Source: Dysidea avara
Lineage: Eukaryota > Porifera > Demospongiae > Dictyoceratida > Dysideidae
Assembly: GCF_963678975.1 (NCBI RefSeq)
Contig: NC_089278.1
Span: forward strand, 10,195,479-10,259,478
DNA: 64,000 bases
Reading direction: 5' to 3'
In this document: piece by piece, positions 11,501 through 60,645 of the stretch
Layout: each line of letters begins with the position of its first letter
Position numbering within the stretch: the stretch's first letter is position 1
Translations under genes and position numbers: made by a program
The notes under the pieces: model-generated
Databases searched by the model: none
Told to the model about the DNA's origin: nothing
Seen by the model: only the letters and a program-made list of their open reading frames with translations

Positions 11501-14148
11501 CAAGAATTGTATAGGGATCATGAGTATTTCAGTTAGCTATAGCTATTATGGACTTAAATAGTGGCATACACAAGACCATGTGACTAAAATTGAGTCAGTT
11601 TATTTCAAAACTGAGTTGGTGTTAACCGAGGCTCTTTGCTTGGAATCGAGTCGGTTTTAACTTGAAAATTGAGTCGGTTTTCTTCAGAACCGAGTCGGTT
11701 TATTTTAATCGGTTTATTTTAGGATCACCGAGACTCAATTTGCAATCAAAACCAGTCGATATTATCACCATTGCCAGTGCATAATTTTGAAACAAATGGC
11801 ACACCATAAAATAGTTAAGCAAGTTTTAGAAATTCAACAACCAGTTTTGTGCATTCACACAATGTTTCTTATGGTGTAGTATTAGTGTCTCATTTACAAA
11901 ATGTCCATAGCAAGCTAAGTGTGTCTATGTGACCATGCATGGGATAGTACTGTAGATGCTACTTTAGCAACTGTGGAGAATTCTCTCAATAGTGGTGTGT
12001 GTCATGACTGTTCTATTAGAGTATTTGACTGACTGCTCTATTAGAGTATCTCGATCTTGTATGTTTTTGTTGTTTTTTTTGGGTGGGGGAGGGGGATCCA
12101 CCACTGAATACATAAAGACAAGGTGTAGCTGCCACAGAAATATGATTGGATTTTTTTTGGAACCCAAAAAGGCACATGTCACACATGTTTTTGCTTATAC
12201 GTTTGTTATTGTCGTGTATGTAAAATGTAGGTTGTACAATGCATTGTTTATAGCTTCTAGCCTTTCAACCAGATAGGCAAGCAGGCATGCAAACCAAAAA
12301 TCACATTCTGGAATTCTGTAATGATAAAACACTATCATACAGTATGATAGTACTGTATAGTAGGAAAATGAATGTGTGGGCGTGGCCCATGATCAAATAT
12401 CACCCAAAAACCTGCCTCGATTTTTCCTCACAATGACATGACAGTATTGGTTGAGTAAAATCAAGCCCAAAAGTGGCCTTCAGATTGATCTGAAACGTTT
12501 TTGTTAAGTTGCTACAGAATTTTTACTTTTTATTTGACAGAATTTTCTACTGCCTGCCTGATGCATTCAGTCAAGCATTACAGCTCCTATATGGATCAGC
12601 ATTGAAACCAGGTCACTACTGCTGACTCGGATAACCCAGCAATCCGGGTCAGACCCGGATTTGACCCAGATTAATTAAAGCCGAGGCATGCGATAAGAGC
12701 TATGTTTTGGGTAGTCTCAAGCGAGCAGGACTACGTTTTGAACGTTCGATTCATGTTGAGTAAACAAGCAGTTATGTGTGATAACTAAGCCGGTAAGTTT
12801 ATAATTTAAAAATCAGTCAGTGGGTTTGGTTCCACATAGCTACTGTGTGTTTACAGAGAGCAATTGGGTGTAGCTTTGTGCATACCTAGTATTACAATTT
12901 CCTGATATATTAAAGTGGGTACTTATCCTGCTGCAAGACTAGACTATATACAACTCATACAATTATCGATTAGTGGGCGTGGCTCCATGTAAACTTGCAT
13001 ACAGCAACGGACACAGTTTTGTGCTACAGACTGCACTTACTAACAAATGGGCGTATGTTTGTAACATGATAAGTGGGCGTGGCTCACAAAAGAGCTACGC
13101 GATTAACGTTTATAAGTTTCCACGTCATCAAACAAACAATTTTGTTTCTCACGTGATCCAATTCGTAAACTGGGTCGGACCCAGATGACCCAGAGAAAAT
13201 GTGACCCGGTTGACCCTGATGACCTGACCCAGATGACCTGACCCGGTTTCAACGCTGATATGGATGGGTGTTAAGACCTGTTTTCGGATTAATTTGCACT
13301 ACTATACAGTGTGTTTAGTGGTCATGAACTTGCAGAGAAAGTTCACAAACAAGTATAAGAAAAATTAGGAATTTTAAACTAGAGTAGGGACAAAGTAGTA
13401 CCATGATAAAAAGTACTGAAACAAGGGAGTAGTATATGTAATATCCAATTGCTGTAAAACAATAAGAAGCAAATATCCCTACTGTGTGTTTCCAGCACAG
13501 TAGGGATATTGCTTCTTATTGTTTTATAGCAATTGGACATTACACACACTACTCCAATCTAGCTTGTTTCAGTACTTTTTATCATGATACTACGTTGTCC
13601 CTACTCTAGTTTAAAATTCTTATACTTGTTATATTATGTTGACCTATATTTTCTTGTCACATAAATGTCAACTTTTAATGGCAGCAGTATGGAGATTCTA
13701 TTTTGGGGGACTCTAAAGACTTGTATAACTAAAGTATTAATTCAAGCTTTGAGATATATATTGATTGCTGTGTAATAAATATTTAACAGAGCAAATTTTT
13801 TTTACAGGATAAGTGTTGATCCTGTTATTACACATGACTTCCCTATGAGCCGATTTGAAGAGGTAAAAGAAATTTGATCAGCAGTATAAATAAATACAGA
13901 GAGGTTCAACCTGTTGACTTTCTATAGTCAACCAGGCTGACTTACAGGATTGTGATTAACCATGTCATCAGGCTCTATCCCTGACTGAATAAAAATGATC
14001 GTCTAGCAAAGCTATACTCAACTCTCCATACTTGTCAAAAAAATCATAAAGCATTTATATATACATGACATCTTTTCTTATTTTATAGGCATTTCATGTT
14101 CTAATGAGTGGAGAAGGAATCAAGATCATTATGACACCTGACAAATAA
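8512..14148 (+). CDS. Zinc-dependent MDR dehydrogenase, L-threonine 3-dehydrogenase-like, copy 2
   Basis: Tandem paralogue of the gene at 2064-7098; 354 residues. Exons: 8512-8674, 8722-8777, 8878-8980, 9599-9661, 9715-9801, 9928-9993, 10046-10106, 10570-10667, 10717-10807, 10860-10896, 10949-11073, 13808-13862, 14089-14148. Every exon has the same length and phase as in copy 1. Catalytic and structural zinc ligands (LCGSDIN, GHEMVGE, YCGECFQC, HICQ) and the GCGPIGLLSVG nucleotide loop are kept. The last exons (VITHDFPMSRFEEAFHVLMSG) match the threonine-dehydrogenase C-terminus. Exon 3 and exon 11 contain stretches identical to copy 1, unlike the other exons. Intron 11 (2.7 kb) is enlarged by a hAT-like element and a foldback element. 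The stop codon overlaps an AATAAA at 14144-14149. Protein should be active; the substrate is inferred from family resemblance. Confidence 0.9.
11328..12107. repeat. Candidate non-autonomous hAT-like element with poly-G tract
   Basis: GGGGGCGGATCCAGGG near 11330 and GGGATCCACCACTG near 12094 are roughly inverted, like the ends of the element at 16916-17200. It holds a poly-G run of about 25 (11351-11375), several GAGTCGGTTT repeats (11590-11715) and a tandem pair of the CTCTATTAGAG motif (12005-12054). No clear target-site duplication, so the boundaries are tentative. Confidence 0.35.
12597..13257. mobile_element. Non-autonomous hAT-type transposon, 661 bp, with perfect 8-bp TSD
   Basis: Terminal inverted repeats start CAGCATTGAAACC at the left and end GGTTTCAACGCTG at the right. 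They are flanked on both sides by the identical 8-bp ATATGGAT (12589-12596 and 13258-13265). CA-initiated TIRs plus an 8-bp duplication are hallmarks of hAT elements. Subterminal GACCCGG/GACCCAG motifs are repeated at both ends, which may be transposase-binding sites. The small open frame inside (12973-13188) has no recognisable domain. Sits in intron 11 of dehydrogenase 2. Confidence 0.8.
13348..13630. repeat. Foldback (hairpin) MITE, 283 bp
   Basis: Two arms of about 135 bp are inverted copies of each other around a short centre near 13490. The sequence runs AACAAGTATAAG... to ...CTTATACTTGTT with few mismatches. The arm motif GAAACAAGGGA links it to the hairpins at 25765-25933 and 60492-60645. 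No coding capacity. Confidence 0.75.
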
Positions 14149-17100
14149 AGTGACAACAATGTCATTATCATAAAATTTATAAAGAAAGTAAAGATTTATT
14201 TTAGGAGTCCAGAGGTGCTTAAATATAGACCCGAGAATTTTACATTGCATATGTGTATTATGTATGTATAGGTATATTTCTAAGCAGCAGGGTAGTTACT
14301 TCTTTTCTCAGTAAATGGACTAAAAAATTGGTCTACACATAATGTCTGCTTAAATGTTGCTAATAAAGCATAAGTACTGTACTGTGTCTTAGGCATTAAT
14401 TTGTACCCGTGCCTGATGTATGCATATGATTGCTATCCAAGAAATGCTGAGGCACTGTAAATACCACAAGTGCTATGACATAATCTGTGTACATCTCATA
14501 TTAATTCTTGCTATGGGACATAAGTTCATTTATCTTGTGGGATCAAGCAATGTTTCATTTATATCCGAACATGAAACAGTGATGGTTGGCTAAAACAAAG
14601 TCATGTAATTTCAGGTTTCATGCATCATTATACATTAAGTGAATGGTGTACAGAAAGTGGTTGTAATAATTATTGCTTTTAGAGTGCAATTAAATCTATC
14701 AATCTGTCTGTATTGTGGTGGTGATGTTTAATGTTTACACAAATTGGCCATTAAGTTGTTGCTGGTGAGGTTATCAAATTAAAACAGATTCAGGTACACT
14801 TCTAGTTGATGAAGTTTCTTGCAGCCGTTATGGAGCACCTTCTCAACTGTAGTGATCAAGGAGCAAACATGCCAGCATGGGGAAGGCTTCGACCTATTTA
14901 GAAAAAAAAGGTTTTTAATGATGACAATATAATGATTTCCACTAGCAAGCAACCCATAATGTCGCATGACAACTTAAAAAGGTATTTCTGAAGGTATCCA
15001 CACTAGTGGTGCCTAGCTGTTGAGCTTGGTGGTAGATCCAAGATGACCTGATGGTTATGAAGTTTTTACATAATATTTAAGCTGGTTGAGTTAACTATTT
15101 GGATGTGACTAATGGCCAAGGATAGGTATTGTAATCAACACAACACTCCATCCTGTAGGAATACACATCAGAAACCTGGATGGGAATATGGCTTCTGTTC
15201 TTTATCAAACCTGGCATCATGCAGCTGCTTGTGCAGTCTGTGTCTTAAGAACAGGGTGGCATCTGCATTGTAATAAGCCTTGCCAGGACAATTGACCTGA
15301 TGATGGTTATGAAGCTTTATCATTAACTAATCTTTAAGCTGGTTGGGTTAACTATTTGGATGTGACTAGTGGCTGAGGATAAGTATTGAAATGAGCAACA
15401 CAACTCCATCCTGCAGGAATACACATCAGAAACCTGGGTGGGAGTATGGCATCTGTTCTTGTCAAACCTGTACTACTATAAGAAAACAGGGTTGGATACT
15501 CTAGATATGGCATCTGCATTGCCATAAGCCTAGCCAGAACACTGTTGCGAGTACAACATCTATCAGCCACTTGAGATCTTTTAATGAAATCAGTTGTGGT
15601 TGGTAACCAGTGTGAACTGGAATCCATAGAGGTAAGGAAAGGTAGAACTCCTTGACTGCATCCACCACAGCCAATTTCTCACATTCTAAAGTGAAGTAGT
15701 TCCATTATGCCATTGTTAGTAACTGTTAACGGTGACGGAGTGACCAAGGCATCACAATTAAGTCCGGGTAGGTAACCAAGGATTGGTGGAGAAGTATGGC
15801 CTGCTGACATATATAGTAGTCCATCGAAAATTTTTGGCCTGTATGCATGCAACTAATGCTACGTATAGTTATGGATGTATTTTCTATGGTAGTTAAAAGA
15901 ATAAATAAGGCAATGTTATTTTAAGACACTTCATTAGCCTCTGGAAGGTGGCATGATACATCAATCAACCAAATCATGGCATAACAATAAACTTATGTGC
16001 CCATTTCTTGTAGAGAAAGCAGTTTTCTTATTTTCAAACTCCAAGGCAACCTGCCAAAAATGCTAAATCAAGGGTAGTGAAAATATCAGGTGATGCTGTT
16101 CCAGCTAGTAGTAGTTGTAGATTAAGTGATAGGGTATACCTGAAGATCTTGAAATGAGTGTCAATAATAACTCTGTAGTAAACTACATTACTACATATGC
16201 TTCGAAGTTTTAGACACAGCACATGCAATGTTGAATAAAGAGGTTAAGAAGAAGTGGCTTAATTCCAGTGCACACTGTAAAATAATGTGTGTTCTATCAG
16301 AGTAGTTGACAGTTCTATTAAAGTATGTAGATGCAGTGGCTGTAAGAAAAAACACGTGGCAATGTTGAGTCATTTAGGGTCACCTGATTTCCTCTTTCTG
16401 CTACATAGCAGTATTTGTCTGTTCAGAATGCTCCGTACTATATATAGTTACTGATAAAGTCTATTATGTTTGTAGCTTACAGTATGTGGTGCTCTGCTGG
16501 TTATTCCTCATGTCTATTTTTATAAGCCTGTACAAAGGTGGAATGCTTTTGCATAGCTATATTAAGCACATTATTTTTTAGTTATTCATTTAGATTCCTC
16601 ATTGTTATAATACAATATCATGGTGTGATGTGTGTAACTCAAGAAATCAGTATGCCATACCAGTATGTTTTTAACTGACAGGATATATAACAATAAGAAA
16701 TTCTTGTATAATTATAGCTCTGCATTTCCCTGATGGTTTTATAGCGGAATTTCCCACCTTATAATGTACTTTGTATCAAAATTATGTAGTTCCTTCCAGG
16801 GATTTAGATAACCCTCAGGAGCAATGAATTCAACAACTTTCCTTCATGTCTATATAGCTACAGTGGTTAGGGGTTTATGCAGCTAAACAGTTTTCCTTTT
16901 CATCTGTAATCATGCCAGGGGTGGATCCAGACTTTTTAAATGGGGGGTTCCACTCTGGAATTGCAACTTCAGCCTAGCTGTAAGTCGAAGACCAAAAAAG
17001 AAAACAACTACTTGCTGAGAATAGAGCTGCCCTACATCTCCCCACCAACCACATCTCCTTATTTATAACTATATACATAGCTTGCTACAATGCTCCTCAG

Positions 17101-17572
17101 AAGAATACTGTGACTGCTCTATTAGAGTATTTCGAATCAGAGGCTCTTCCAAAAGGGGGTTCCATGGAACCCTTTGAACCCCTCTGGATCCACCACTGCA
17201 CACTGCAAAGTGAATTTAGTGATAGATTTTTTCACTTAAATCAGAAGTTTTTGAGGGACCACTTTTCACTGTTACATTGTCTATTAAAAACCACAAAAAA
17301 CCTATATCCCTGAAAGTAGCAGGCTCCATTCTTTGTGTAACGTGTACATGGTATCAAATCCTCTCTACATCCTCAAACAGTACCTTATAGTGTTGTTTGA
17401 ATATTAAATATTTTGTGCCTAGTTCAAAAGTTTGAGTTATAAGCTGGACATATAATATGCTCCATTGTATTTGTAGGTCTGTGCATATCTATTCATTTTC
17501 ATCAAATATTTCAATCATAGAGAATATTATATATGTGAAGTTCAATATACAGAGGATAACATTTAACTAGAA
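14149..17572. other. Intergenic region with tandem duplication and repeat debris
   Basis: 15037-15229 and 15294-15475 are two diverged direct copies of a segment of roughly 200 bp (shared GGTTATGAAG, TTAACTATTTGGATGTGACT and ATACACATCAGAAACCTGG). A degenerate pair of the CTCTATTAGAG motif lies at 16291-16326, and one good copy at 17111-17135. No gene was recognised here. Confidence 0.55.
16916..17200. repeat. Candidate non-autonomous hAT-like element
   Basis: CAGGGGTGGATCCAGA at the left and TCTGGATCCACCACTG at the right are inverted copies, about 285 bp apart. This resembles hAT TIRs. Flanking 8-mers do not match well, so insertion type is unproven. The CTCTATTAGAG motif at 17111-17135 lies inside. 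Confidence 0.5.
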
Positions 17573-22070: not shown

Positions 22071-25000
22071 GTAAGTTCTGGAACTTGTGTATGCAGTAAT
22101 TGTGTACATAGACTCTATTTGGTGGTGTGCTATGTATACACCCACACATTCCAAGCAATAAGGGCAGTACTGTGTGGTAACTGTAATTACCTTTGGTCTG
22201 TTTATAGCTGTAAGGAAATTTATACTGGTAGACCGATGGTGCCAGTCATCCTTTCAACTATTATTTAGGTGAAGTGAGAATCATTCTGGTAATGAAGCTA
22301 TGCATGAGTGGTTAATTGGTAGCTATCTGTGTATAGTCTGCCAGAATATGCAGCTCTTTACTAGTTAATAGCCAATTTTCAACTTGATGAATAGTTTGTC
22401 ATCTACAGCAACAAAAACTATTTACTAAATATATTGTTGTGATTACAATAGAATTTGTAGAATTAGAATTCATTGCCTTGGCAGTTGAATTCAGCATGCT
22501 TACGATAGAATTAGGCATGCTTACGATAGAATTAGGCACTATTAGCTACATTAGAACATATCAAAACATATGTATGGGATTTGTCAAATCAAGCATTTTC
22601 AGGTTGTCAACATGAAGAGTTTTCAAAACACTGGGTTAAACCCTTAGAAGTTAAGAATTATGCATTTAATATCTTTTTTGAAACCTTAGCTTGGTAAAAC
22701 AGGCTGATCATAAAATTTCACCATTCCTTGTCATTCGTTGCCCAATGCAAAATACATGTATTTTACACTACATACAAAAACACTAATTTACAACCTTTAA
22801 CTCACAAAAGCTCTACAGCACACCATACAATAAAAGAAAGCCCTTGAATTTCTCTATCCGATGCCAACCGTACAAATTGGAAAATGTTGCCTTTGTGACA
22901 GTTATTTACTGCTGATGATGACATAATACGTGCTCCATACATTAGCCTATTGGGAAATTTAATTATCTCGACGGGAAAATCCCAATTTACAAGTTGTTAT
23001 CCTCAGCTAAATTTGGTATCATTCTACGCAGCGAAGGATGCTTAATAAGACTCCGACCGTACAAATTGTTAAACAGCTTAGTTACAGAGATATGTTGAAA
23101 AACACATGTTTTTACAGGCATTATGAACATGTAATTTTTTTTACGTGATACAATGCTCCTTTTTAGCTTCCCCTTCACTACACACAAAGAACTTGCACAT
23201 ATATTGAATCACCTTTCATCAAGGAATCTGATAAACCGAACTTCATGTCTATCAACCAGAGTACGCGGAAGTTATGGCACCTTGTTTAGAAGACAGTGTT
23301 ATGTTATATGAAACGGGCATAACCCATTCAGAAAACTGCTTTGATACATGTTCACCTTTTTGTATTTGGCGGGGCTCAGGTAAATGGTACTGACTATAAC
23401 AAACTTTTTTTAGCCATTTACTGCTATTGATCATTACTAAATTTGTCTACAGCAAGCTTGATGCTTGATAAGGATTCCTACCAGTAGTGTCGTTCATATA
23501 GACATTATGCTTGAATTTACACTTCTGTAATGGAACAAATGAACATTATAAAATCTAAGCCAGAAACTAGGCTGAAAACACACAGTTACTTTATACTCAG
23601 TCTTGAATAGACTTATTGCTTATTTATTTATTGTTACTGGGAAGACGGCAATTGTCGATGCGCCCAGGGGGCGATCAACACCCCAAAGAAATCACACATA
23701 CACATAAAATATACAGCAAACAATTAGATAGACAATAAGTAATTAGTGAATGCATCTATGCTTATATCGAGCCATAAGCCTAAAAAGCAAGGAAATAATT
23801 TTGAACAGGCCATACTAATGGTGCTACTGCATGGTGTAAGCAGACACGGTCTGGTGAGTTACTTGTTAAATGATAACACTACTCAATTCTCATTGGCCAG
23901 TCAATATTTTGGCTGGATCACACTACCAGACCCAAGAAAAAGTTGTTCATTGTCACTAGATGGTGTTTGCGCTTTACGGGCCAGGCTGTGCACAAGATTA
24001 ATTATGAAGCATGAGTTTGCATGAGCTACTGGTACACTTGTTACAAACACATAACTAAGTCTTGTAGCAGTGTAAGTAGGCTTAGTTTCCATTTCCAAAG
24101 TGTATAAAACTCTCTTTCATGGTGATTTGTTAATTGTAGTGTTACAGCCAAATAAGCTAGCAATGGCATAATAATACTATTCTACTATATCAGACAAAAG
24201 TTGAGAGGATTGTAAGTTTGAAAACACCCTCATAATACCTTCATGGCATCTTGGCAGTATTGGTTAAGTATAATAAAGCCCAAAAATGGGGGTTACTATT
24301 CAGTGGACTGGACTACTGGACTGGAACACTGGACTGGACTGACATATTTTTGGTTTTTATACATTCTGAGGTTGGTTTTATTGAGTCTTGCTAGTAAGAA
24401 CCCTTTGGGTACCTGCAGCCCACTTCTAAACACTGAAGACAAACAGTGGAATATGCGAAAACTGTCTCTTAATAATTTCGCTACTGTTCATTATGCCACT
24501 ATACAACACTTATTCCTTACCTGGTGTGTAGTAATGCTGCAGGCAGTGCGGGGAACTGAATATGACAGCAATAGTTAACCAGCGATCAACTAACCAGTAG
24601 ACAATCTTTCAAGATAGCCTTGAGGAGCAAGCTAGTCTCGCCAGCATGGCCAGACCTCTCTAGTCAGTGCAGGGGCTTACCAATTAGAGATTTTTCAGCA
24701 TGGGCGCTTATAATCTTTATTTGATAAGCCCCTACACTGAAACAGTGAGACTAGTGAGAGCAAGACTAATGAGACTAGCTTGCTCCTCAAGCTTGCTCTA
24801 AGGATATATCTTGAAGGATAATGTCTACCGGCTAGTTGATTGCTGGTTAACTATTGCTGTCACATTCATTGGCAGAATTCCCTGCACTGCCTGCAGCATT
24901 ACTACACACCAGGTAAGGAATAAGTGTTGTATAGTAGCATAATGAACAGTAGCGAAATTATTAAGAGACAGTTTTCGCATATTCCACTGTTTGTCTTCAG

Positions 25001-28000
25001 TGTTTAGAAGTGGGCTGCAGGTGCCCAAAGAGTTCTTACTAGCAAGACTCCGTAAATCCAACCATAGAATGTGCAAAAACCAAAAATATGTCAGTCCAGT
25101 AGTCCAGTAGTCCAGTCCAGTGTTCCAGTCCAGTAGTCCAGTCCACTGAATAGTCACCCCCGCCCAAAAATGCCTTCAGTACAACTTGAAGCATTTTCAA
25201 TAGGTTGCTACAAAATTAAATAAATTAAATGTATATGTGACCTTCTGAGCAAAAACCCAGACTTAATTGTTTGTTTTATGACTTTTTTGTTGTCTAGAGG
25301 GAAAAACTAATGGACTGTTAAAGTTCCAGCAGGCACTCGTTTAATCGATCATAATTATCTCTCGAGTGCAATGAGGGTACAGAGTTGGGACTTGTGCCTT
25401 TCTATTCACCATGAACTGGGGCATTCATCAAAGTATAGTTTTCGACTTAAATACACCCATGCTATCAAGCAAAACGGCTGTTCAAGCTTGGCGACAATAA
25501 AGTTTTGTTTTACTGCAACGTAAACAAACACACGTAACGTACGTTTGCTCCATGATACAGAAACGAAACAAAGATACTCTTACTCTCCACGAAGAGGCGA
25601 ATCCACTGCTATATTAGATTATTTGATTCAAGTCTTCTTTCGCTGTTTACTAAAGCGATTAAAACGCTGCGTAAAATTATTTATGTAGCACGCTTTTTAA
25701 CCCAATGTATAAACAGAATTATGCAAACAGTCGGATTTTCGCTCAGCAGGTCACATATAAGTAGAAGCAAAAATTAGTGATTTTAAATTGGAAAAGGGAT
25801 CAAAGAAAAAAGTAGTGAAACAAGGGAATAGCTAATTGAGTTGCGTGGTTTGTAGACTGAAGTTTAGGGATTTAATGTCCACTAGTATATCTGCAAGGTG
25901 TAGGCAACCTTCCTTGTTTCACTACTTTTTAGCTACCGTATAGCAGGAAATTTTTGAAAGGTTAAATTTTCGAAAAACAATGCTTGACAGCAAGTTCAAA
26001 AAAATATTTTCAAAACTAGGCTTCAATAATTAGCTAGTAAGGATTCATGAAGTCACACAAAGCTGTAGCTAAGTGGCAGGGCCGCCCACAGGGGGGGGCA
26101 ACTGGGGCATTTTGCCCCGGGCCCCAGCCTGAAAGGGGCCCCAGGAGGCCCCATGAAAGGCCCCCTGAATACCTGTTTAAAAGATCGATATACTCTAATA
26201 GAACAGTCAGATCTAAATACTCTAATAGAGCAGTCACAGTATTCTTCAGTGGAGCAGTGTAGCAAGCTTATAGATAAGGAGATATTGGATATGGTTGGTG
26301 ATGGGTAGTTATTGTCATTGTCAGTAGGTTGTGACTTTTTTTTTTTTTGGTCTTCAACTTACAGCTTGGGTGAAGGGCCCGACTTTAACTCTTTGCCCTG
26401 GGCCCCTTAATTTCTCTGGGCGGCCCTGCTAAGTGGTTGTGTTGATTACCTAGTAACTAACACTAATTAGCTAATGTGCTATACTCATTTGGTTATTTGG
26501 CCATGGTGAGAATGATGGTGGACAGTGGCAGTGCAACATATTGGACAACGGCAGTACCCTATACAACATATTCATTGGAGTCTGTTGTTCGAGGACACCA
26601 TGTCTACAAAGAGATATGGAACAGTTTCATTGGCGAAGAACTGTCATGCCAAAGAGAAGATGGTAATATACATGTTATGTATGCTGTAGAAGGTAATATA
26701 CACGATATGTATGCTGTCTCAGTGATCAAAGAGTTATGTGGGCGAGAAGCTGTTGTAGGTCATCTCCCAAGACAAATTTCAACAGTTTGTCACTTGTTTT
26801 TGAGAAAAGGTGTCATAATAGCTTGCCACGTTACTAATAGTCGCCAGTATTCTGCTGATCTTCCTCAAGGTGGGTTGGAGGTTCCCTGTAACTGACCAAA
26901 GATAAGAAGTTGCTTGATAAAACTAGCTAGTCACCGATTCTACTCCAGCTGTGAATCCAGTTGCAGTTTCTGGAGCCCCAGCATCTTCATCAGAATTCTT
27001 CACCGGCTGCAGTGCCCCCATTTCCCTTGTTGAAGAGGTAAACGAGGGACAAGAAGAGCCGAATCATGATCCCCTGTGGATGTACATTGGAAAATGTGCA
27101 TTACTAAATTCTGACAAAGAGTGTTTGTTGACTTACAGCCACTCGCTCAATGACAAGCATACAAATGCTACTCATGCTCTTAAAGAGACAGTTCAGCAAT
27201 GCAGTTGGCCTACAATCCACTTTGTTACAATATAAAGTATTGCCAGTAAAGATGACAACGGGATTGCAGATCGTTCATTGCAATGGATGTCACTGGGTTA
27301 CTGTCTACAAGGAAGACAAGGACACCAGCATAGTAAAAGTATTTGATTCTGTGTATGCTTATTGAATCAGCTCAATGTTTCAACAGTGATCAAGAATATT
27401 TTCTGTTCCGCAGACTCTAGACCATTAAGGATAGAGCTTTTTAACCCACAAAGGCAAATAGCTAACTCCAATAATTATGGTCTCTTTGCAGTGGCAGTGG
27501 CTACAGCCATTTTACATGGCCAGGATCCATGTACTAGGAGGAAGAAATGAGGCTCCACCTTTGCAAATGTTTTGATAAACAGTCTCTAACAATGTTTCCC
27601 TGCATGTAATTAGCATGTAATATAGTATTCTGTGTGACACACTCATACTCTATACAGTAGTTAGCTACTTCTAATTATCACAGTCAAACAAATGTAGCTT
27701 TATTTTGTTAATGTACAGGTTTAAATTTAAAGTAAACCAGCTTTCCGGAAGCCATTTCTAGCTATTTCAGGGTGTGAATGTAAATAACCAAATAAGTTAA
27801 TTAACCAAATCGCTCCCACAGGCTTCACCACAGAGAGGGAGAGATGACAGCTTGCACTTTATTGCATTCATGAAGCTGTGAACAAACTTCACCAGCATAC
27901 CAATTGTGAAATTGGCGCCTTAGGAATTCTTTTACAGATTTGTTGACACTGACATCCAGTGGTTGTAGTCTATCGGTACAGTTAGCTGGCACCAAAGTGA

Positions 28001-31000
28001 TAAGGATATTGTTGTCTTTAAGGACTTCAAGTACTGTGGGAGTGTATTGGGCCTTGAACTGATCAAATATCACCAGACAACTCTGGTCATCTGGTAGCTT
28101 GAGATCTTGCCTCTTCTACTTTACATACGGCAACAGAATCTCATCAATATATTGCAGAGTGGTCAACTCATTGGCCCAGTGATTTTCTGTAAAGGTTACA
28201 TTCCAGCCTGCAGGAAACTTAACAGTAGGAAGAGATCTTCTTGTGGTTCCTTTGTGAATGATTTGTGGTGGCAGAAAATCGCCAGACATGGTGATACTTA
28301 AAACTGCAGTAATTTGCCTCTTATCATCTATGCCTGCAATTGCCACTCTTTTGCTTCCTTCTGCCTCCATAGTCCAGTTACTAACAGGAACGTAATGGAT
28401 TCTAGTATGGTCCCAATTTATAACCAAGTCATCTGGAATCTCCTCAAGCTCCATGATTGCCTTCACGTCATTGACAAAATGTGTCTTATTTTCTTCAAAA
28501 TTTACATTTGATATTTTTGCCTTGATGTGGCTTTCCTTTTTACAAAATTCATCCGTATCATCAGAGACTTTGCCCAGTACTTGGTATTCAGAATGGGACC
28601 ACCGCTTTTTGCCGGTATAGATTGCTATCCTTGTTACAGACAATACCTTCTGCTGTAGCCATCACTATAGCTGTGTTTATCACCACGCCATTCACTCGTA
28701 ACTGCCGCTGAGAAGTCAAGAATGTCTCCACATGTTTGTCCAGTTCTTTACCCAGCAGTAAAGGACGTCCCCGCTTCTTCTTTGGCAACGCAGTAACCTC
28801 TGCACTTTCACCTGGTCCACGCTTTTTGTTTAGTGCATCTAGATACTTCACCTTCCAACCATGCATAGTACTGGGAGAAAGTTTCCGTTTTTGATCAGTT
28901 TGCTTTTCCAGATTCCATCTTAGAAAAGTGACATATCGCTGATGTAATTCCACTTCAACTCGCTATCTTGGCAATCTCTGCTCTTTCTGTATCACCAAAT
29001 ACCTGGTATATTCCATGAGTATTGGAAGACTGTGCCTCATCGTCATCGCAAGTAGGTGCTGTGCATCCCTTAGTTGTTAAGAGATGCTCATGTACAAAAG
29101 AATTTACTGCTTCGATTGCTGAACTAGGCTTTGACGTCAACAAAGGTCCGTCAGACTTTGGTAGAATTGCTTCCACCGCTTCTTCCTTCGTAGGTTCCTT
29201 GCTCGTTATATTACTTCCATAATGCAGTCTGCTTTGACATTTTCACCTCGACTTATCACCTCGACTTATGAATTTTCACCACGAATTATTGACACTTGTA
29301 TTTCTATAACTATGAAAAAATATTTTCAAAAACGCATTCACGTTTTCGAATTTTTTGAAAATTTCCTGCTATATGGTATTCCCTTGTTTCACTACTTTAT
29401 TTTCGTGTAAAATTCCTAATTTTTAACTTCTACTTGTTTGTTTACTTTTTGTAGCATAATTATGACAAATGAACCAGCATTAAAAACAGGAATGCCATAA
29501 ATGTAATTTGCATCAGAACATGCATCCCGACAATCAATTACGGAAAGGAAGGTGGCCATTATGCTTTGTTTTCAACTATGCTCCGCCCTTTACACAGCGT
29601 TGCAAACAAAGAATAGTACAAGAAGCGTCTCTGCAATCAATCCCAGTTGCTATGGAAATATGGGTGATAAGCATAACACAGCCACAGGAAAGTCTCATCA
29701 CGTTATCACGAATTGACACCTTGTGTTGTCAGTGAAAAGAACTGAAACACAAAGGAGGACAAAAGCAAGTCCATGGTATGTGTGTTGTATGCACTATGGT
29801 TGACGAAAAGGCATACGTTAGGGTCTAGCAGTGAAGAAATCAGGCCCATAGCCTTATCTGTTGTTGAGTTATGCTTGGCTGGAGGCATCAGTTTGTCAGT
29901 CAACATAAAATTCTGTTAATTAGAAAAATTTTAAAATAGCTACCATAGAAACGTTTTGGAAGAGTTTGGGGGTTGGTCTGAAGGCATTTTCAACCTTGAC
30001 TGTGCCTAACCAATGCTGCCAAGCTGTCACAAAGGGAAATTGAGGCTGGTTTTAGGGTGATATTTTTGGCTGGAAAAGCCCAGTTCTTCATGATCCCTAA
30101 TATACAGTACTAGCGTACTGTATTATATATATTCAGTGGAAATTCTACTGACTAACTGACTACCTGACTGACTGATGCCTTTAGACAAGCATAACTTGAT
30201 AATGGATAAGACTATGGGTTTGATTTTTTCATTGTTTGATGTCGCTTCAACCTGACAGATGCCTTTTGGCATACTGCAGTATGTACAATGCATGCTTCAT
30301 GGACCTACCTGTGTCCTCTTTTGTGTCCCATTTGTCACACTTGATCATGAGTAGCAAGCTAATCTCACATGGTGCCAGTCTTCCATTTCAACACGGGCTG
30401 AGATTTTTCAGCGAGGGCACTTATAATCTAATTGATATGCCCCTGCAATGAAATATAGGTCTGGCCATATCAGCTTCTCAAACTTGCTCTAAGAATATAT
30501 CAACTTTTGATCACTATGCTAGCCATCGCTTTACTATACACCAGGGTAAGTGCTGTCAGTATATTGGCTTAACAAATAATGTGTAGCGAACATAATCATT
30601 AAGACAGTTTTTGCATGTTCCAATGTTTGTATTCAGTGGACTGCAGGTTCTCAAAGGGACCTTATGTAGTGAGACTCAGTAAATCCAATCACAGAATGTG
30701 TAAAAAAAAAGTCAGTCCAGCATCATATCATTCATTCTCACTTTAATGGTGGTGTTTTAGAGGAGATATTTAGCACTGTAAAAATGATTGTGTAGTGTTA
30801 AACGACTTCCTTTCCAAACAACATAGCAGATTTTGCGTACGTTATCCCAGCCAGACATGAGGATCAATATGCACTCATGACATATCAAGCAAAGGTGTAT
30901 CAACAAGAGTAGGACCATTGTCAAGAGCACAATAGATGGATGACAATTCCAAGATCCATGAGAACCATGTCTGAGGAACAAACAATTGGAAACTCCAGTG

Positions 31001-37000: not shown

Positions 37001-40000
37001 CTTTTACAATAGAACAGGTCGATAAACAAGATTAATAGATTGCTTAATATTAATTGTATATCCTAAAAGGTTGACGATAGTTTGATACAGAAATTTACCT
37101 ATGTTGCTGGAGTTGTCCCTGTCTTTCAAGCATACATTAAAGAGGTTAGAAATAATTCCCATACTGGATGTAGTACTGAGTGGGATGCTATAGAAAAGTT
37201 TACAAACTGATAAAATTGGAGTTAAAAAGTCATCTGCAATGCGTAAAGTATGTTATTGTTGATCAGCAATAAATTAATTAATCATTTGCTGTGTAATTAG
37301 GCCCTTGGTGAATTAGCAGATTTCATGAAATATGCACACCCACGCATGAAGGATCATCAAAAGCTGTTAAGAAATTTAATGATTATTGAACTGATTGTAC
37401 GAATCCTGGAAGGGTATGATCCTAAAGCATCTGATGCTCGGTATGTGTGTGTATCTGCTTTTAAATTTCTTTCTGTTAAAATATTTTTACATTTAGTAAC
37501 CATCAGTCAGTCTGTCAGGCATGCTACAAAGTGATAGAGGTGTACTTGCTAGGACAAAGTCGGTATGTGCTATAGGTTAGTATGTAGCAGTGTTTAGCAG
37601 CTTAATATGTACAGCAAGAATGAAAACTATCTTGCACGGTTTATCAGTTTCTTTGAGCAGCAAATAGGAATGGGCCTTAATGCTGAACAAATGTTAACAG
37701 AATTGGTTAGAGACAACAGGTAAGTAGCTGTAGTTATTTAGTTGTACATAGTTGAACACTGGTGTGTTAGCTTGATTGTATCAAAATTTGATGAAAAGGA
37801 AGTGGATGCTATTATCAAAAAACTGATTGACAGCAAGGTACAGACTAGAACAATTTAAATTAGTATCCAATTACATAACACTAGGATCATCGCTTTTTTG
37901 ACTACCTTGGTGTCTTGTGTGTTTGTAATGATCGTCCCATTCCTGAAAATCAAGGTACGTAAATATATTTTTGTGGATATTTTATAATTTTGGTGTTGCA
38001 GACATGATTATTAAAAAGCTAGTTCTGCGTTATGGAGAGGTACCAGTTCCTTTGTTTCTATACCTGTATGTATAGTAATGTATTGACAAATGTTAGGAAT
38101 TGTTTTACCTAACTGAAGTTCGTGATGTCCAAGGTCGTCTATATGGTGCTGATCCCAAAAGAGAGATACAGTATTATCCACCCAAGTCTCAAAGATGGTA
38201 CTCACTTGCTGAGATTGCTGCCAAAGTATACTTGTAATTGTTCATGCATGTCAGTATTCATGTACATAATCATACACACAGGGTAAACCCACGAACACAC
38301 CTGAGTATCAATTTTTGGTGGCTCAGTTGGATCTGTTTGGAAAACTATGCAAAGTATGTGTGTGTGTTGTAAATTAGTCATGTTATGTGTTTATTGTTAC
38401 AGGGAAACAACACTGAAGCAGTTAGAATCATAGATAAGGTACATCACTCTGGTTTTCATGGTACTGTAAATAACTCATAGGAGCCAGTTCCCACTTGGTT
38501 ACCCAAACCACAGAATATGGTAGTAGAGAATATGTCTTAATGCTAAGAGAATGAAATTTGTCTAACTGTAATAGTGATTACACACTTGACTGTATAATTA
38601 TTCCTGCTTGGAGATGAAGCAAACACTAAGGGGTCCAGTTGTCACAGGAAGGCTTCGATGTTGGTTTGTGTATTGTCAAACCACGTACTGCATGCATTGG
38701 TCTGACTATTGAGCACACAGGCTCCAAGCCTTTTTGTGCTTACTATTTTTGCTCATGGTACTTTTAGCATGTGTCTTGTGATACGTTAATTTTTGGTAGA
38801 GCAAACTAACTATCCCATGTGTTGTGTTGTAGTTGACTACGTTTTGGGTCTCCATGATGCGAGGAAGAGGGCTAAAGCCTCTGAAGAAATTCCTTGTGAT
38901 GCAAAGGATTTCTGGATATGGGCCATGCCACTAACTCCAGAACTCCTTGGCTCATTATGAACTCCTGGCCCGTTGGGAGTATCACTAGATCCTCCCTCGC
39001 TGGTAAAATACTGGGGTAATCCTCTTCCTAGAATTGTTGGGTACCATGATTGCGATGCCCACAAGGGGGTGATTATCCCCACTCTTGCCATCTGTCTCTT
39101 TATCTGGCTCAGGCAACGTGCTATTAAGACCCCGGGGGGTTGGTAAATCCCCTCATCTGAGCCCAATCTTGGTTGAAAGCATCTGTTGCAACCGCTTCCG
39201 GATCTGGTCTCCAACTGTAGAAGTTGGGTAGTTGCTTTGTCAGTGGGGATCAAACAAGTCTATCTACAGGAGGCCAATCTGCCGTTGTATTCAATTGAGG
39301 ATCTGGGGATTTAGCATCCAGTTGCAGTGATCCTTCGTTGAGCGTGACTCCCGATCTGCTGTTATGTTGTCCTTCCCTGGCAGGTGTTCTGCCACCAGAA
39401 GATGTCCCTCTGAATGCACCAGTCCCATATCTTCAGTGAAAGCTGACAAAGTATCTTGGAGTGCATTCCCCCTAATTTGTTATTGTATGTCACTGCTGTG
39501 ACATTGTCCAACTTCATCTGAATTGTGATCCCACTGCTATGCTTGGCAAAGCACTGTAGTGTTAGAAAACGCAGCTAGTAGTTCTAGATAGATTGTATGG
39601 CGAATGGCTTCCTCTGGGGACCATTTCCTACCTGTCTGGTGGTGGCCTTGTCAGGCTCTCCATCCCATGTTGGAGGCGTCTGACTCTATGGTCATTGATG
39701 GTGGCACCTGGGGCAGGAGGGGAGACTGCAGTTGGACTTTCCTGTCCAGAGCATGCCACCACTTCAGATCGTTCTGGGCCTCCATGTTTAAGATCAGGCT
39801 GGTGCTGAATTTCATTGCCATGTCCTTGGTCTCCATGGAGTGCCAAGACACCGAGTTGGTTGAGAACTGTAGTGAAGGGGAGCTTGCCTTACAGCTCGTG
39901 TCAATGCTGAGGCCTTCCCAACAAACCTTGCTATGTCCCTCACTGTAATACTCTGTTGGTAAAGGGGGTGTTGAGCTAGCTGCTTTATTTTCCTCAGCTT

Positions 40001-43000
40001 CTCGGCTGGGAAGATCAGCTGGAGTCTGACTGTGTCTACCTGAAAACCCAAAAACTCCAGTTTCTGGTCTGGAGTCAGTTTTGACTTCTGATTCACGACC
40101 AGCCCCAGAGCCTTGAGCAGCTGGTAAATCAGTGGAGACAGCTGAACCAGCTCCTCTTTCGACTGGTGTAGCAGTAGAATATCGTCCAGGTATATGACTA
40201 GACGAATATCCACGTGCCTTAGTGCTCCCACGACTGGTTTCATTACTTTGGAGAAAACCCACAGGGCTGATGTCAACCTGAATGGGAGGCACTGAAACTG
40301 GTAGGTTTTGAGTTCCCATTGGAACTGGAGGAGGTGTTAATTGGCACTCTACCTGGATTGGTATCTGAAGGTGAACATCCTTCAGATCCAACTTTATCAT
40401 CTAATCCTCTGGTTGGATGAGGTTGGGAAGGATATGTAGTCCCTCCATTTTGAAATGTCCATGCTTCACAAACATGTTGAATGCCTTCAGGTTTATCACC
40501 AGCCTCTGTCCCCCCTCCTTCTTTGCTACTTGGAGGATCTGTAACACAAAGCCTTCCTGGGAAGGGGTGGTCCCTACCACTGCACCCTTGGCCAATAATT
40601 CTCTGATCTCCTTGGAGATTATTTCCCTTTGCTCTATAGAGCAGTTTATTGCTGGCATAGGCCTCAGCTGCCATGGTGTTTGATAGTTGGTATACCCTTA
40701 TGGCTTGCAGGACCCATCAGTCTTGCATTACTTTCTCCCAGGGGCTGGTGATGGTTAAGTACATCTGACTCATCAACACTACCAGGTGATGCTTTGTAGA
40801 AGCCACCTGTGCTGACAATGGGGTATAGGGTTTACAATTGTATTTAAAATTGTAACGTGTGGTGTTGACACAATCAAAGTTCTAGTCAAGACCTCCCTCG
40901 TGTGGTCTTTGTTCCTGCTTTCTTCTTTGTAGTGTAATTGTAAGGCATTTTAATTTTAATAGTTACAGTTATTGTTATTGTGGGGTTCCAAAAATTAAAT
41001 TAGTTATAGTTATTAATTGTTAACAATAAGTCAACCTATAAAGTTGTTGTTATTGTTGCGTACTATTGTTATTTGTTACTGTTATTGTTTTTTGTATTAT
41101 GTATCCTTGGCATGCAAGAATTAGTTTGTAAAACGTAATCTCTAATAAGTACTGTAGGGTCAATTACTTCAGTGTTAATAGTAATCTAATCCAAACAGCT
41201 AAGCTGTAAAAAAAAGAGTGCGGCCCTCAAAAAGGCTATGGTGAAAAAAGATGTGAAATCCAAGGTGGCGGCCAAGAAATGGCTGTGATGGTAGGTTAAT
41301 GGTAAAAATTTTAATAACAACAATTCAGGTGAATTTTGGTGCCGCTTGGTCTTGGCACAAAATTCACCTGAATTGTCGTTATTAAAATTTTTACCATTAA
41401 CCTATCATCACAGCCATTTCTTGGCCGCCACCTTGGATTTCACATCTTTTTTCACCATAGCCTTTTTGAGGGCCGCACTCTTTTTTTTACAGCGTAGCTG
41501 TTTTGGATTAGATTTCACTTCTTTTTGTATTTGTATACCCCAAATAGGCCAGCTTTGGGGCTTTTTAAACCTATCTTTTTTTTCTTTTCCACTGGAAGAA
41601 GAAAAGGTGAAGCAGATGAATACTTTAAATATTTCTGATTTTATCAATAAATGTACAAATTATATATATATAATACATATATTTATTACAGAACTCTACA
41701 TGGTGCATGGTTTCTTTGTAACTGAACACTCTACAAGCCAGTACGAGGTGAGTCCTTCTAGCTGATCTCTCTACAGGGTGAATTATTGTAGCTGAACTAT
41801 CTACAAGGTGACTTCTTCTAGCTGATCTCTCTACAGAATGATTTGTTTGTAGCTGAACTCTCTACAAGGTAACTTCTTCTAGCTGATGTCTCTACAGGGT
41901 TACTACTTAGTAGCTGAACTCTCTACATGGCGACTTCTTCTAGCTGACCTTTCTACAGGATAATTTGTTTGTAGCTGAACTCTCTACAGGTGATTTGTTT
42001 GCAGCTGAACTCTCTACATGATGGTTTCTTTGTAGCTGAACTCTGTACAGGGTAATTTCTTTTAGCTGATCCCTCTACAGGGCGATTTGTTTGTAGCTGA
42101 ACTCTCTACATGGTGGTTTCTTTGTAGCTGAACTCTCTACAAGGTGACTTCTTCTAGCTGAACTACGTAGTTGAACTCCCTACAAGGTAACTTCTTCTAG
42201 CTGATCTCTCTACAGGGTGAATTGTTTGTAGCTTATCTCTATACAGGCTACTAGTTTCTAGCTGATCTTTTGAATTCTTTTCAGGGTGACTACTTTATTA
42301 GGGTGACTGCTCTATTAGAGTATCTCGATCTCGCACTTGCTACACCAAGTTTGATTTTGTGTTATAACTCTGTGGCTTTAAGTCTAATTCTTCTACACCA
42401 TTGAAGATACTTTCTAAGGTGATTACTCCATCTGTACAGCGAATTTCAAAGTATTGCCCTAAGCGATTTTTCTGGTGGGCATGGGAAGTAGTTGTATTTT
42501 TATTAGTTAATCTCGATTGCATAATTGTTACACACTGTTGGTTTTTTCGTTGTATCTTCCTGGTTTTTAGCTCGATTTCTTTCAAACCACAAAAGGTTTG
42601 AGGTTCAATAGTTAACCTATTCACCCACCGATTTTCAGCTTCTTCACGTCAGCGGTTTACCCTGTAGGCGTGACAACATATCGGTGTTATTTTTCGTGAA
42701 TAATCGCTAATATCTGTTTGCCTGTTTATCATATTCCAGCCAAACTTGGTACAGAGATGTGCCTTTATACCCCCCTTCTGTGAGCCAAATTTCAAGGCTA
42801 TTGGATATTGCGTTCGCGTTTTATAGCGGTTTTTGTAAGTGTGCGAAAAGAGGAAGAAAAATAAGAAGAGGAAGAAGAAAAAAAACGAAGGAACTAAGCC
42901 AATTTTTGAAGTCGCATATCTCGGAACGCTTGAAGCGATTTCGCTCAAATTTGGAATGTGGAGTACTGAAGTTGGAGGGAGTGTCCACAGCAAAAATCGT

Positions 43001-52000: not shown

Positions 52001-55000
52001 AATCAAATTCAATCACTTGGGAGTACTGTTGAAAGAGTATGTTTTCACTGTCAATGGAAACTGGTTGTTTACGATTATTATTTTTAGATTGTAAAATTGC
52101 TCTCTCATCCTAATGAAAAAATTGCTGCAGAAGTTTTAGCTTTCTTATCAATCCTGCTGTACACTGGTAATAAAACTGTTCAGGTTTGTCTTTTATATAA
52201 CAAAAGTATCAATGACTAAGTTTAATAAATACAGAAAGGGTTTAGCTATCTGATGCACACAAGAGAAGAAAAGCTTTTTGTTAGTATGCAACAGCGTTTA
52301 CAACAAGCTGCCATAAATGACCGTGAAAGAAGGACACTTCTAGCCCAGCTTGAATCACGTGAGGAGGCACAAAAAGTTTTGGTGAGTGATTTATTTACTT
52401 ACATGGGCAATGTTTTGCATCATGTGTTTACAGAGGGACACATTTGTCACTCATTCTGCTCGTGGTGGGGGAACCATTCGACCAACTGCCCAGGTATATA
52501 TATATATATATATATATATATGCTTTGTGTTGTGTACTGTGTTAAAATATGTCATTGTTTCCTTTAGGAAGCATTAAGTCTTGGTGGTGATATAGGCATG
52601 TCTGAGAGCACAGAGATTCTAGATCAGGTTGGAGGTTCAAGAAAGCCTTCTACGTGGGAAGATACGATGGATGTAGCTAATAAAAAGTTACTTGTATCGG
52701 TATGAGTTAATGAATATATTGTGTCTGCAATGGCTATTGTACACTCAAGAAGGACCATTTGTTTGTGGTACCTGGTGATCACTGCTTATATGTAGTACTG
52801 GATTGTCAAATTGTCATGATGTACTAGCAGTACTTTTAGTCATTGCATCGAACCTCAATGACCTACAATAAAAAAAACCTTTCAATATCTACGCATACCT
52901 TGTTAAACACCACAGTAGTCTAGTGTCAAAAATTGATGTGGGTACTTAAGGACAGTATTTTATAGTATAGGGAGCTCTTAAGTGTGGCAACTTTTTAGAA
53001 CAGTAGTACTGTGTAGTAGGGATCATGAAGGTTTGCACCTTCTCACAAATCAACTTCATAATACTTTCATGGCACTTTTTAGCAACATCGATTAGTATTA
53101 TCAAGTTAAAAATGCATTTAGGGCAACTCACAACGTTTCCAAAATGTTGCCACAGTTTTTTTGACTGATTTGCGATGTACATGGTATATGTGGTAAACCG
53201 GTCTATCGCCTGTTTAAATGTATTGAGAAATGCAGGTTTTAAATAATTAGTGTGTTGTAGCTTGCCAATGGTTGAAGTTACATGTACCTAATTTTCACAC
53301 ATTTTATACCAATTTCTTACCTCCCAGAGCATAAGTAGCCAGCACCTAAGTTTCCATCCCTTTTAGATAGTTTTTAATTCGAGGTTGACTGTATCAGGCG
53401 CTAGCTCCAATAGGGATGGTGGGAGGGGGGTGAAGGGGAGGTCAAGAGGTTATTGACAAAATGAAAGAGGAATGTGTAGGCATGAAGTAAGCCAAAATTA
53501 TGGATCATTTAGGTTTCAATTGTTTTTGGAGGGGGTGGTTGCCTCAAACCTGGGATTGATAATTGGAGTCTTAAGCTCCAAGAGAGCATGAAGGTGGCGT
53601 TTGCCTACCTCTTCCGGGGGTGTGGCTTTATTGGAATCTAAGGGAGGCTTCATGGGTTGTGACTCAGGAATGTTGTCGAAGTTAAGGTCCATCAATAAAT
53701 CTTCCTCCAATGTTATGTCATTGATATTGAATAATTGCTCTCTCATCCTGCTTTGGGAGTGAAAGTTTAATGACACTTTTAAGAAAAAAAGACAATTTCA
53801 ACACTATGCTTTACAGCTACATACAACCATCCCCAAGCTGGCCAGAGCTCCATTAAGGCCCTAGACCACTTGCTTTGTGGGAAAATCCCTACTTTGGCAT
53901 TGAACAAAATAATTTGTCATGAGATGCCAATGTAGGGATTTTCCCACAGAACTAGGTTGTAATGCCATCATTCATCTATTGTCTCACTAGTTTTTTATCG
54001 TTTGGATCCCTACTTCATTTTTAAATTAATAGTGATACTAGCAACTAGTAACAATAGTAGAAAGCAAAGTACAGCAAGTAGCTGCCTGAAGGCAAGGACA
54101 CACATACTATTGTCAAGACTCAGGAGCTACCATTTGAATATCAAGTGTACTGAATCCACTGTACTGTTTAGACAGCTGTCATGGTAGATAAACAAAAAAA
54201 CCATTTCTGGTTTAACTGCATTGCAATACAAACTAAAATCTTTTATTACATTTAGTATGTTGCACATTGTATTAGGACGATTCAAGGTAGTATTTAATGT
54301 GCCAACTTCATGAGAATCCATACTATTGTGGTAACCTAATAAATGACTAATAATCTTGGCAGGGTGAAGCCTATGAAATGCAGCAGCTGTCCCCTGTACA
54401 TACTTCTGCTCCTCCTACAAGTGGTCGTAGTGGCCGTCTGACTATCACTGATCCTAATTATAGTGGTAAGAAGAGGAAAAAGCGAGCAGACCGAATGAGT
54501 GTGTCTGAGGTAATAATTATAAAGTTACATACAACTATTGATTGCAGTTTATTTATTAGCTGTTAGCAGAAGCTGGATTAGCAGAGAATGAAATTCAGCT
54601 GCAGAAACTACAAGAAGAATATGTATGTTGTTTGCTACTACCATTAAAAGTATTATGTTCTCTGAGATTATTCTAACTGTATAGCCAAGCTAGATTTAAT
54701 ACTAGTACTGTTTGTTGTGTCAAATGGATGCTATATATGAAACCATTTTTTATTCAGGACAAGAAAAGCACTGGTGAAGTTACAAAGAAATCCAGTTCAC
54801 TCCAATTCAAGGATACATCCTATATTGAACTAGCACTTAGAGTTCTTGGTTTACTCTGTGATGGTCAATATCGGCCAATGCAAAACTACCTTCGAGAGCA
54901 ACCAGATAACATAAAAACTATCAATCTTGTATCCGAAATCTGCATTTTTCTATCATCATTTTATGTTGATGTCACAAAGGATAATATTGTGCTTATTACG

Positions 55001-59649: not shown

Positions 59650-60050
59650 TGTATATTAGGGATCATGGTGGTTTGGGTCTTTCAGGCCAAAAAAAAATCA
59701 CAAAAAACCAACTTCACAATACCATCCTAGAGCCTTGGCAGTATTGGTTAGGTATAACCAAACCTAAAAGTGCCTTCAGTACAACCTTAAATGCCTCCAA
59801 TAGATTGTTACAATTTTTTTTAATTATTCAATGGAATTTTCTACTGACTGACTGCCTGCCTGCTTGATACCTTCAGGCAAGTGTAACTTGATAATGGCTA
59901 AGGCTACAGGTTTGAGTTTTTCACTGTTCAACGTCACTTTGTCCCGAGACGTACCTTTTGGTATACCGCAGCATGTACAATGCACGCATCTTGGACTTAC
60001 CTTTGTTTTTCATTTCTTTTTGCTGACTGCCCGAGGTGTCAATTCACAGT
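59650..60050. repeat. Dispersed repeat (TTGGCAGTATTGGTTA family)
   Basis: Related to sequence at 12440-12580, 24240-24290, 53016-53110 and, in similar order, 30100-30350 (ACTGACTGACTGCCTGCC, TAACTTGATAATGG, ATGTACAATGCA). Non-coding. Confidence 0.5.
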
Positions 60051-60491
60051 AGCGTGATGCATGGCTTCCTTACATTAGTAAATGGAAATTGTTTGTATTT
60101 TCTGTGGTGACTGGATGATTGTAGAGGCACTTCTGATAGTGTTCTTCATTTGTTATGCTGTGTAACAGGCTGAAAATAGGTGAAAGCAAAGCACTACGAC
60201 CACTTCACTTTTGAGTCAGTAATTGATAGTTGGGGGTATGCAGACCATCCATATTTTTCTTGGTGACTGGGTTGATTGCAGAAGCACTTCTACTGTTCTT
60301 CGTTTGTAGTGCTGTGTAACAGGCTGAACATAACTGAAAGCAAAGTGTAGTGACCACTTCACTTTCGAGTCAATAATCAATAGCTGGGGCATGCCTTCAG
60401 ATGAAAACATTAACTCTGGCGCCATCCTTTTCTTTGATGTAGTATGCACGAGTTTACCAGTCATAATTATGTTACAACAAAGTAAACAAAC

Positions 60492-60645
60492 AAAAAGTAG
60501 GGATTTTAAGTTCGATTGAGAATCATAGAAAAAAGAGTAGGGAAACAAGGGAGGTCAGTAAGAGAGATTAAATGTTCACTAGTATATCTGCAGGTGTAGC
60601 CGACCTCCCTTGTTTCCCTACATTTTTCCTAATTGAACTTAATTT
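60492..60645. repeat. Foldback MITE (GAAACAAGGGA family)
   Basis: AGTAGGGAAACAAGGGAGGT pairs with ACCTCCCTTGTTTCCCTAC about 80 bp away. The internal CACTAGTATATCTGCA is shared with 25765-25933. Confidence 0.75.

Follow-up and report, generated by a model that had tools for sequence, protein, structure and literature searches.

A two-gene pogo-superfamily transposon lineage with a converging HIRAN and C48 protease gene in the sponge Dysidea avara

A decayed DNA transposon in the demosponge Dysidea avara raises the question of whether some pogo elements carry, besides their transposase, a second gene that belongs to the transposon itself. The element lies at 25936-29376 of a 64,000-nucleotide stretch, here called the window (assembly GCF_963678975.1, contig NC_089278.1, positions 10,195,479 to 10,259,478 of the forward strand), and a first-pass annotation made from its sequence alone suggested that a HIRAN and protease gene shares the element with the transposase in a two-gene lineage. 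The genome-wide comparison described below upholds that suggestion. The element belongs to a widespread two-gene cut-and-paste lineage of the pogo superfamily, a large and diverse clade with many near-identical open copies, in which a transposase gene converges with a gene for an accessory protein; in this protein a HIRAN domain at the N-terminus is followed by a variable linker and, at the C-terminus, by a cysteine protease domain of the Ulp1/SENP type (C48). This anatomy and lineage we regard as almost certain. Neither the pogo superfamily nor HIRAN is new, and Ulp1 domains are known from other DNA transposons; a pogo lineage that encodes a HIRAN-C48 protein of its own was not found described in the open-access literature searched, Repbase and subscription papers being outside that search.

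The copy in the window

The interval is occupied by a transposon of 3441 bp with short inverted ends and TA on both sides, organized as follows.

25934-25935: TA target-site duplication, left
25936-25961, plus strand: left terminal inverted repeat (TIR)
26515-27609, plus strand: accessory pseudogene, HIRAN and C48 (Ulp1/SENP-like) protease, broken; start and stop set from relatives
26569-26892, plus strand: HIRAN-like part, bounds approximate
27263-27548, plus strand: C48-like protease part, in two frames (27132-27362 and 27347-27547)
27727-29242, minus strand: DDE_1 (DD35D) pogo-type transposase pseudogene, broken; 5' bound approximate
29351-29376, minus strand: right TIR
29377-29378: TA target-site duplication, right

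The coordinates first proposed for the TA-flanked inverted ends proved exact, the left and right ends being identical at 18 of their first 19 bases and at 21 of 26 over the full repeat. The 15-mer ATAGCAGGAAATTTT occurs exactly in the window at the two element ends only, and five times when up to two mismatches are allowed (0.33 expected); in the whole genome it has 51 exact matches, as against none for the reversed pattern used as a control.

Stops and frame changes interrupt both genes, the accessory gene on the plus strand and the transposase gene converging with it on the minus strand, and the window copy is dead. A DDE transposase pseudogene on the minus strand had been claimed and is borne out by a DDE_1 match at 27825-28115 (E 5e-8, 33.2 bits), above the Pfam cut-off (22 bits for DDE_1; 24.7 for HIRAN, 20.7 for Peptidase_C48 and 22.2 for HTH_Tnp_Tc5). 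The HIRAN-like part, which contains a 30-bp tandem duplication at 26658-26717, reaches 13.7-14.8 bits, below the cut-off, and the protease part has no Pfam match; the protease nucleophile, a Cys in two close relatives, is replaced by Tyr in the window copy. A search of solved structures with the HIRAN piece returned one unrelated chain (E 0.75), and a single-sequence fold of the HIRAN-like frame was of no use (mean predicted local distance difference test score 30.3). The window alone would leave the HIRAN and C48 assignments unproven, and a single broken copy with a sub-threshold HIRAN and no C48 match would also fit chance capture, the one-off acquisition by a one-gene pogo element of a HIRAN-protease gene from the host or of some separate mobile gene.

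The assignment to pogo/Tigger-like elements holds for pogo, on the DDE_1 domain, the TA target and the short TIRs. The narrower name Tigger is less decisive, since the spacing of 35 residues between the second and third D, found in the window transposase and in that of an intact copy (C7, below), fits Passer and also falls within the Tigger range: Passer is DD35D and Tigger DD29-36D in the pogo superfamily of IS630-Tc1-mariner (PMC7386202, PMC9976928; these and all other sources are cited from excerpts). DDE_1, this spacing, the TA duplications, TIRs of less than 30 bp and an element length of ∼3.2-3.4 kb are shared with Passer and Tigger, which in the same sources have one or two transposase reading frames, whereas here there is a second, converging HIRAN-C48 gene (PMC7386202, PMC9976928). 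Pogo elements are described there as coding for transposases and as the source of the host genes POGK and POGZ (PMC7386202, PMC9976928).

Pairing of the two genes across the genome

The 550.8-Mb assembly (108 contigs) was queried with both genes, and the best 150 of 932 first-look candidates for HIRAN and the best 150 of 844 for the transposase were compared. A transposase match lay within 8 kb of 84 of the 150 HIRAN matches listed, the window's included, and all 84 pairs are convergent, with the transposase downstream and on the opposite strand, 80 of them at a distance of 1.5-2.7 kb. Within 20 kb there are 87 pairs among the matches listed, 85 of which converge. Random positions gave a mean of 0.7 pairs and a maximum of 5 in 1000 trials, with the length of each contig taken as the largest coordinate seen; an expectation so far below the 84 convergent pairs argues against a single chance capture. 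In no fewer than 24 of the 84 pairs, counted by eye, both frames are open and free of stops over at least 360 and at least 468 amino acids, and several sets of pairs have identical scores, which suggests, at the level of sequence, recent activity.

Among the best 30 HIRAN loci, including the window, a transposase was found on the opposite strand within the 1.5-kb flank in 21, and a listed transposase match 2.3-6.8 kb away in 6 more, giving 27 of 30; the remaining three are L149, L159 and L162. From the other side, 66 transposase matches had no listed HIRAN partner, and a converging HIRAN-C48-like gene was present in all four of these that were examined, which had been picked for their long frames. 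Copies with the transposase only, and an accessory gene living elsewhere on its own, were the pattern expected if the two-gene proposal were wrong; this pattern did not emerge among the loci examined, L149 being the candidate exception. In 29 of the 30 best loci the motif TAC[CT]GTA[TC] precedes the HIRAN match by no more than 700 bases (by eye, the call at L159 looks like chance and that at L175 is doubtful), while its reverse complement, used as a control, occurs at least once anywhere upstream in 9 of 30.

Complete, deleted and degraded copies

Inverted ends enclose both genes in four copies, namely that in the window and three more (C6, C7 and C2) found by a script requiring TA at both sides, so that the expected location of the HIRAN/protease gene between the TIRs of other copies was confirmed. 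C6 (3318 bp, 15 of 16 end bases matching) has both genes broken and belongs to the subfamily of the window copy, with DNA identities of 90.5% over 1687 and 84.6% over 1348 aligned bases. C7 (3442 bp, 15 of 16 end bases) has both frames open, encoding a HIRAN-C48 protein of 362 amino acids from its Met and a transposase frame of 520 amino acids (DDE_1 50.8 bits; HTH_Tnp_Tc5 17.4 bits, short of its cut-off), and thus provides the intact copy that had been sought. In C2 (3160 bp, 14 of 16 end bases) the HIRAN-C48 frame is open (373 amino acids from Met) and the transposase broken. The window copy is interrupted by a miniature inverted-repeat transposable element (MITE).

26077-26428: hAT-like MITE inside the element, with 8-bp duplications CTAAGTGG at 26069-26076 and 26429-26436

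This MITE was inserted after the element had formed, because C6 has the site uninterrupted. Elsewhere in the window, the stretch 16967-17135 is related to the MITE and its duplications (26069-26436).

Of the 51 TIR matches, 20 longer stretches and 8 short loci were examined. Many of the TIR loci are short elements with ∼80 bases of their ends in common. At L128, positions 997-1868 hold an 872-bp deletion derivative with both TIRs and TA on each side, in which the 5' part of the HIRAN gene runs directly into the stretch that encodes the N-terminal part of the transposase. A degraded, distant copy extends over L140 and L146, where HIRAN- and protease-like stretches converge with a transposase at 32-50% amino-acid identity; its right end was looked for and not found. 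The HIRAN gene of this old copy is split again at L140 by a MITE with the same TIRs, and a frame resembling the reverse transcriptase of long interspersed nuclear elements (by eye) continues from its HIRAN part at L140 4038-5051.

Co-inheritance and selection

Distances between HIRAN proteins and between their transposases are correlated (25 loci, r 0.91; 12 representatives, r 0.77; p 0.0001, 9999 permutations). The ratio of nonsynonymous to synonymous divergence (dN/dS) of HIRAN-C48 was computed for ten pairs, of which three were saturated in dS and were not used. Two comparisons between the same two subfamilies gave 0.140 and 0.138 (dS about 1.1) and another subfamily comparison 0.264 (dS 0.43), with values of 0.26, 0.57, 0.94 and 1.27 for close copies. 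Judged by these ratios, the accessory protein is under purifying selection between the subfamilies compared. Given the correlated divergences and the dN/dS values, the accessory gene has therefore descended together with the transposase and stayed functional between subfamilies.

The consistent pairing, the ends enclosing both genes in four copies, the co-divergence and the purifying selection therefore identify a two-gene lineage and not a chance capture, which becomes very improbable; a nested second element was rejected on the same evidence.

Domains of the accessory protein

The converging HIRAN and cysteine-protease pseudogene of the first-pass annotation, with sub-threshold or absent scores in the window, is vindicated by its relatives, some of which pass the HIRAN, Peptidase_C48 and DDE_1 cut-offs where the window copy passes that of DDE_1 only. 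HIRAN scores exceed the cut-off in L154 (29.2 bits), L176 (30.4), L181 (25.2) and L184 (37.0) and fall below it in L183 (20.6), and Peptidase_C48 scores exceed it in L154 (22.9), L182 (28.4), L183 (30.3) and L184 (21.5) and fall below it in L176 (16.7). In an alignment of 14 proteins (A1), HIRAN was detected in 12 at E up to 0.1. When solved chains were compared with the accessory profile, SENP1 was the only match (E 0.27), aligned along the His, Asp, Gln and Cys in order, and it was again the only match for L183 alone (E 0.27-0.40); no match among solved structures was obtained for the L154 protein, the transposase or the L184 HIRAN frame. The catalytic His, Asp, Gln and Cys are present in intact relatives and the Cys is lost in the window copy; in L154 the His stands 18 residues ahead of the Asp and the Gln 6 ahead of the Cys.

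The order of these residues and the Gln six residues before the Cys are as in SENP1/Ulp1-type proteases, from which the accessory protein differs in that the match reaches only E 0.27 and isopeptidase activity is here a prediction from sequence. The HIRAN domain is shared, by Pfam, with HLTF/Rad5 (PMC4666394, PMC11237066); unlike in HLTF/Rad5, a C48 protease takes the place of the RING domain and the SWI/SNF motor, neither of which was found by Pfam in the accessory proteins scanned. Ginger1 and the Ulp1-bearing Mutator-like elements are likewise animal DNA transposons with an Ulp1-type protease domain (PMC2836005). In Ginger1 this domain forms the C-terminus of a Gypsy-integrase-like transposase, whereas here it is fused to HIRAN in a protein whose gene is distinct from that of the neighboring DDE_1 transposase (PMC2836005). 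Scans of viral contigs with A1, the TIR and the pieces of HIRAN and transposase sequence found no relative; a scan of genome contigs gave matches in prokaryotes that look like chance, and a tblastn search of plasmids gave none.

HIRAN-only genes beside other transposases

HIRAN also occurs beside some other DDE_1 transposases. Among the best 150 DDE_1 profile matches, at least five have a listed HIRAN match within 8 kb, four on the opposite strand and one on the same, and by eye HIRAN profile matches lie near a few more; the idea that HIRAN accompanies any DDE_1 gene was rejected on this count. At L185 (143-2224) a HIRAN-only frame of 144 amino acids (34.3 bits) stands head to head with a transposase in which DDE_1, HTH_Tnp_Tc5 and CENP-B_N are all above cut-off. 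L186 (1-1666) has a HIRAN-only frame of 153 amino acids (28.0 bits), also head to head with a transposase, and L187 (400-1882) a HIRAN-like frame of 153 amino acids (18.5 bits, below the cut-off) converging with a DDE_1 transposase. TIRs were not found for any of the three within the stretches examined. From their gene content, these loci are classed as other two-gene pogo variants that have no protease, and they suggest that end binding came first and that the protease was added later.

Such variants raise the possibility, which we rate clearly below an even chance, that HIRAN is a general pogo cofactor: several pogo clades here encode a HIRAN protein, and one large clade would have fused to it a SENP-like protease, so that a deSUMOylase encoded by the transposon would act at the 3' ends that the transposase creates and control repair or silencing there.

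Possible functions of the accessory protein

For the two-gene lineage itself, a HIRAN-guided, deSUMOylase-like protease acting at transposition ends is proposed tentatively, at somewhat less than even likelihood; the whole explanation, comprising anatomy, lineage and mechanism, is judged probable. Cutting by the transposase would leave 3'-OH ends. HIRAN, as in HLTF, may bind such ends or fork-like DNA and bring the protease to the cut complex, where the transposase itself, or host proteins of repair and chromatin, could be stripped of the small ubiquitin-like modifier (SUMO) or of a related one. Removal of SUMO might then license repair, release the complex and help transposition to finish, or it might shield the element from silencing. 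The HIRAN domain of HLTF binds single-strand 3'-OH ends, and HLTF needs it to clear Cas9 post-cleavage complexes (PMC11237066). For Ginger1, the Ulp1 and OTU domains were suggested to aid transposition, perhaps through repair (PMC2836005).

Several observations weigh against this proposal or against parts of the domain assignment beneath it. HIRAN prefers forks over plain ends in one study (PMC4666394), and HLTF also requires its motor, which the accessory protein does not have. Passer transposases are active in cells, so that an accessory protein need not be required (PMC9976928). The C48 model stays below its cut-off in C2 (16.7 bits), finds no match in L181 and is detected in only 6 of the 14 A1 proteins at E up to 0.1, several rows ending before the protease, and the SENP1 matches are weak. 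Against the two-gene lineage itself stands L149 (C14), a HIRAN-protease copy in which another 2.3 kb of sequence held no transposase; it looks cut short, with a left-end-like motif and the gene in pieces, and neither a transposase nor a right end was found in the stretch examined.

SUMO takes part in the silencing of transposons in animals. The accessory protein might serve against silencing, with no role in cutting or joining: guided by HIRAN to transposon DNA that is broken or being replicated, it would strip SUMO off host repressors through its protease. All the evidence from anatomy fits this equally, and intact copies have retained the protease motif. On the other hand, the HIRAN-only genes beside other DDE_1 transposases would have no protease for the task, and chromatin targeting would be an unusual task for a DNA-end module. 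We consider this possible, at appreciably less than an even chance.

Alternatively, the accessory protein could be a self-limiting regulator that binds the ends, blocks the transposase and holds copy number down. The isolated HIRAN domain is dominant negative in the HLTF-Cas9 assay (PMC11237066), and the convergent genes could permit antisense control; a blocker, however, needs no conserved protease motif, and multi-copy families often have HIRAN-C48 frames that are long and open. Such a regulator is unlikely.

In a HIRAN-guided protease of the kind proposed, a conserved module of the end-binding type and a protease that removes a modifier would link DNA transposition, end repair and SUMO signaling, and the accessory protein would be a possible helper for gene-transfer tools. 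The lineage adds to the Ulp1-type proteases of Ginger1 and Mutator-like elements a case with a different transposase and a separate gene (PMC2836005).

Flanking repeats and other features of the window

The transposon sits in or beside a family of MITE-like repeats with the end motif AAAGTAGTGAAACAAGG, members of which lie at 13338-13620, 25753-25930, 29377-29675 and 60000-60626.

25753-25930: older MITE-like repeat flanking the left end of the element

When the flanks were joined and searched for, none of the window's repeats offered a clean empty site, and scans with Rfam and for tRNAs gave no match. To the left of the element, a long near-perfect inverted repeat at 24222-25175 contains two mirrored frames of 118 and 116 amino acids. 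A reverse transcriptase fragment lies on the minus strand at 39812-40336 (RVT_1, 43.2 bits), and a host gene is marked by the RIH_assoc domain of ryanodine/IP3 receptors at 54677-55075 (69.3 bits).

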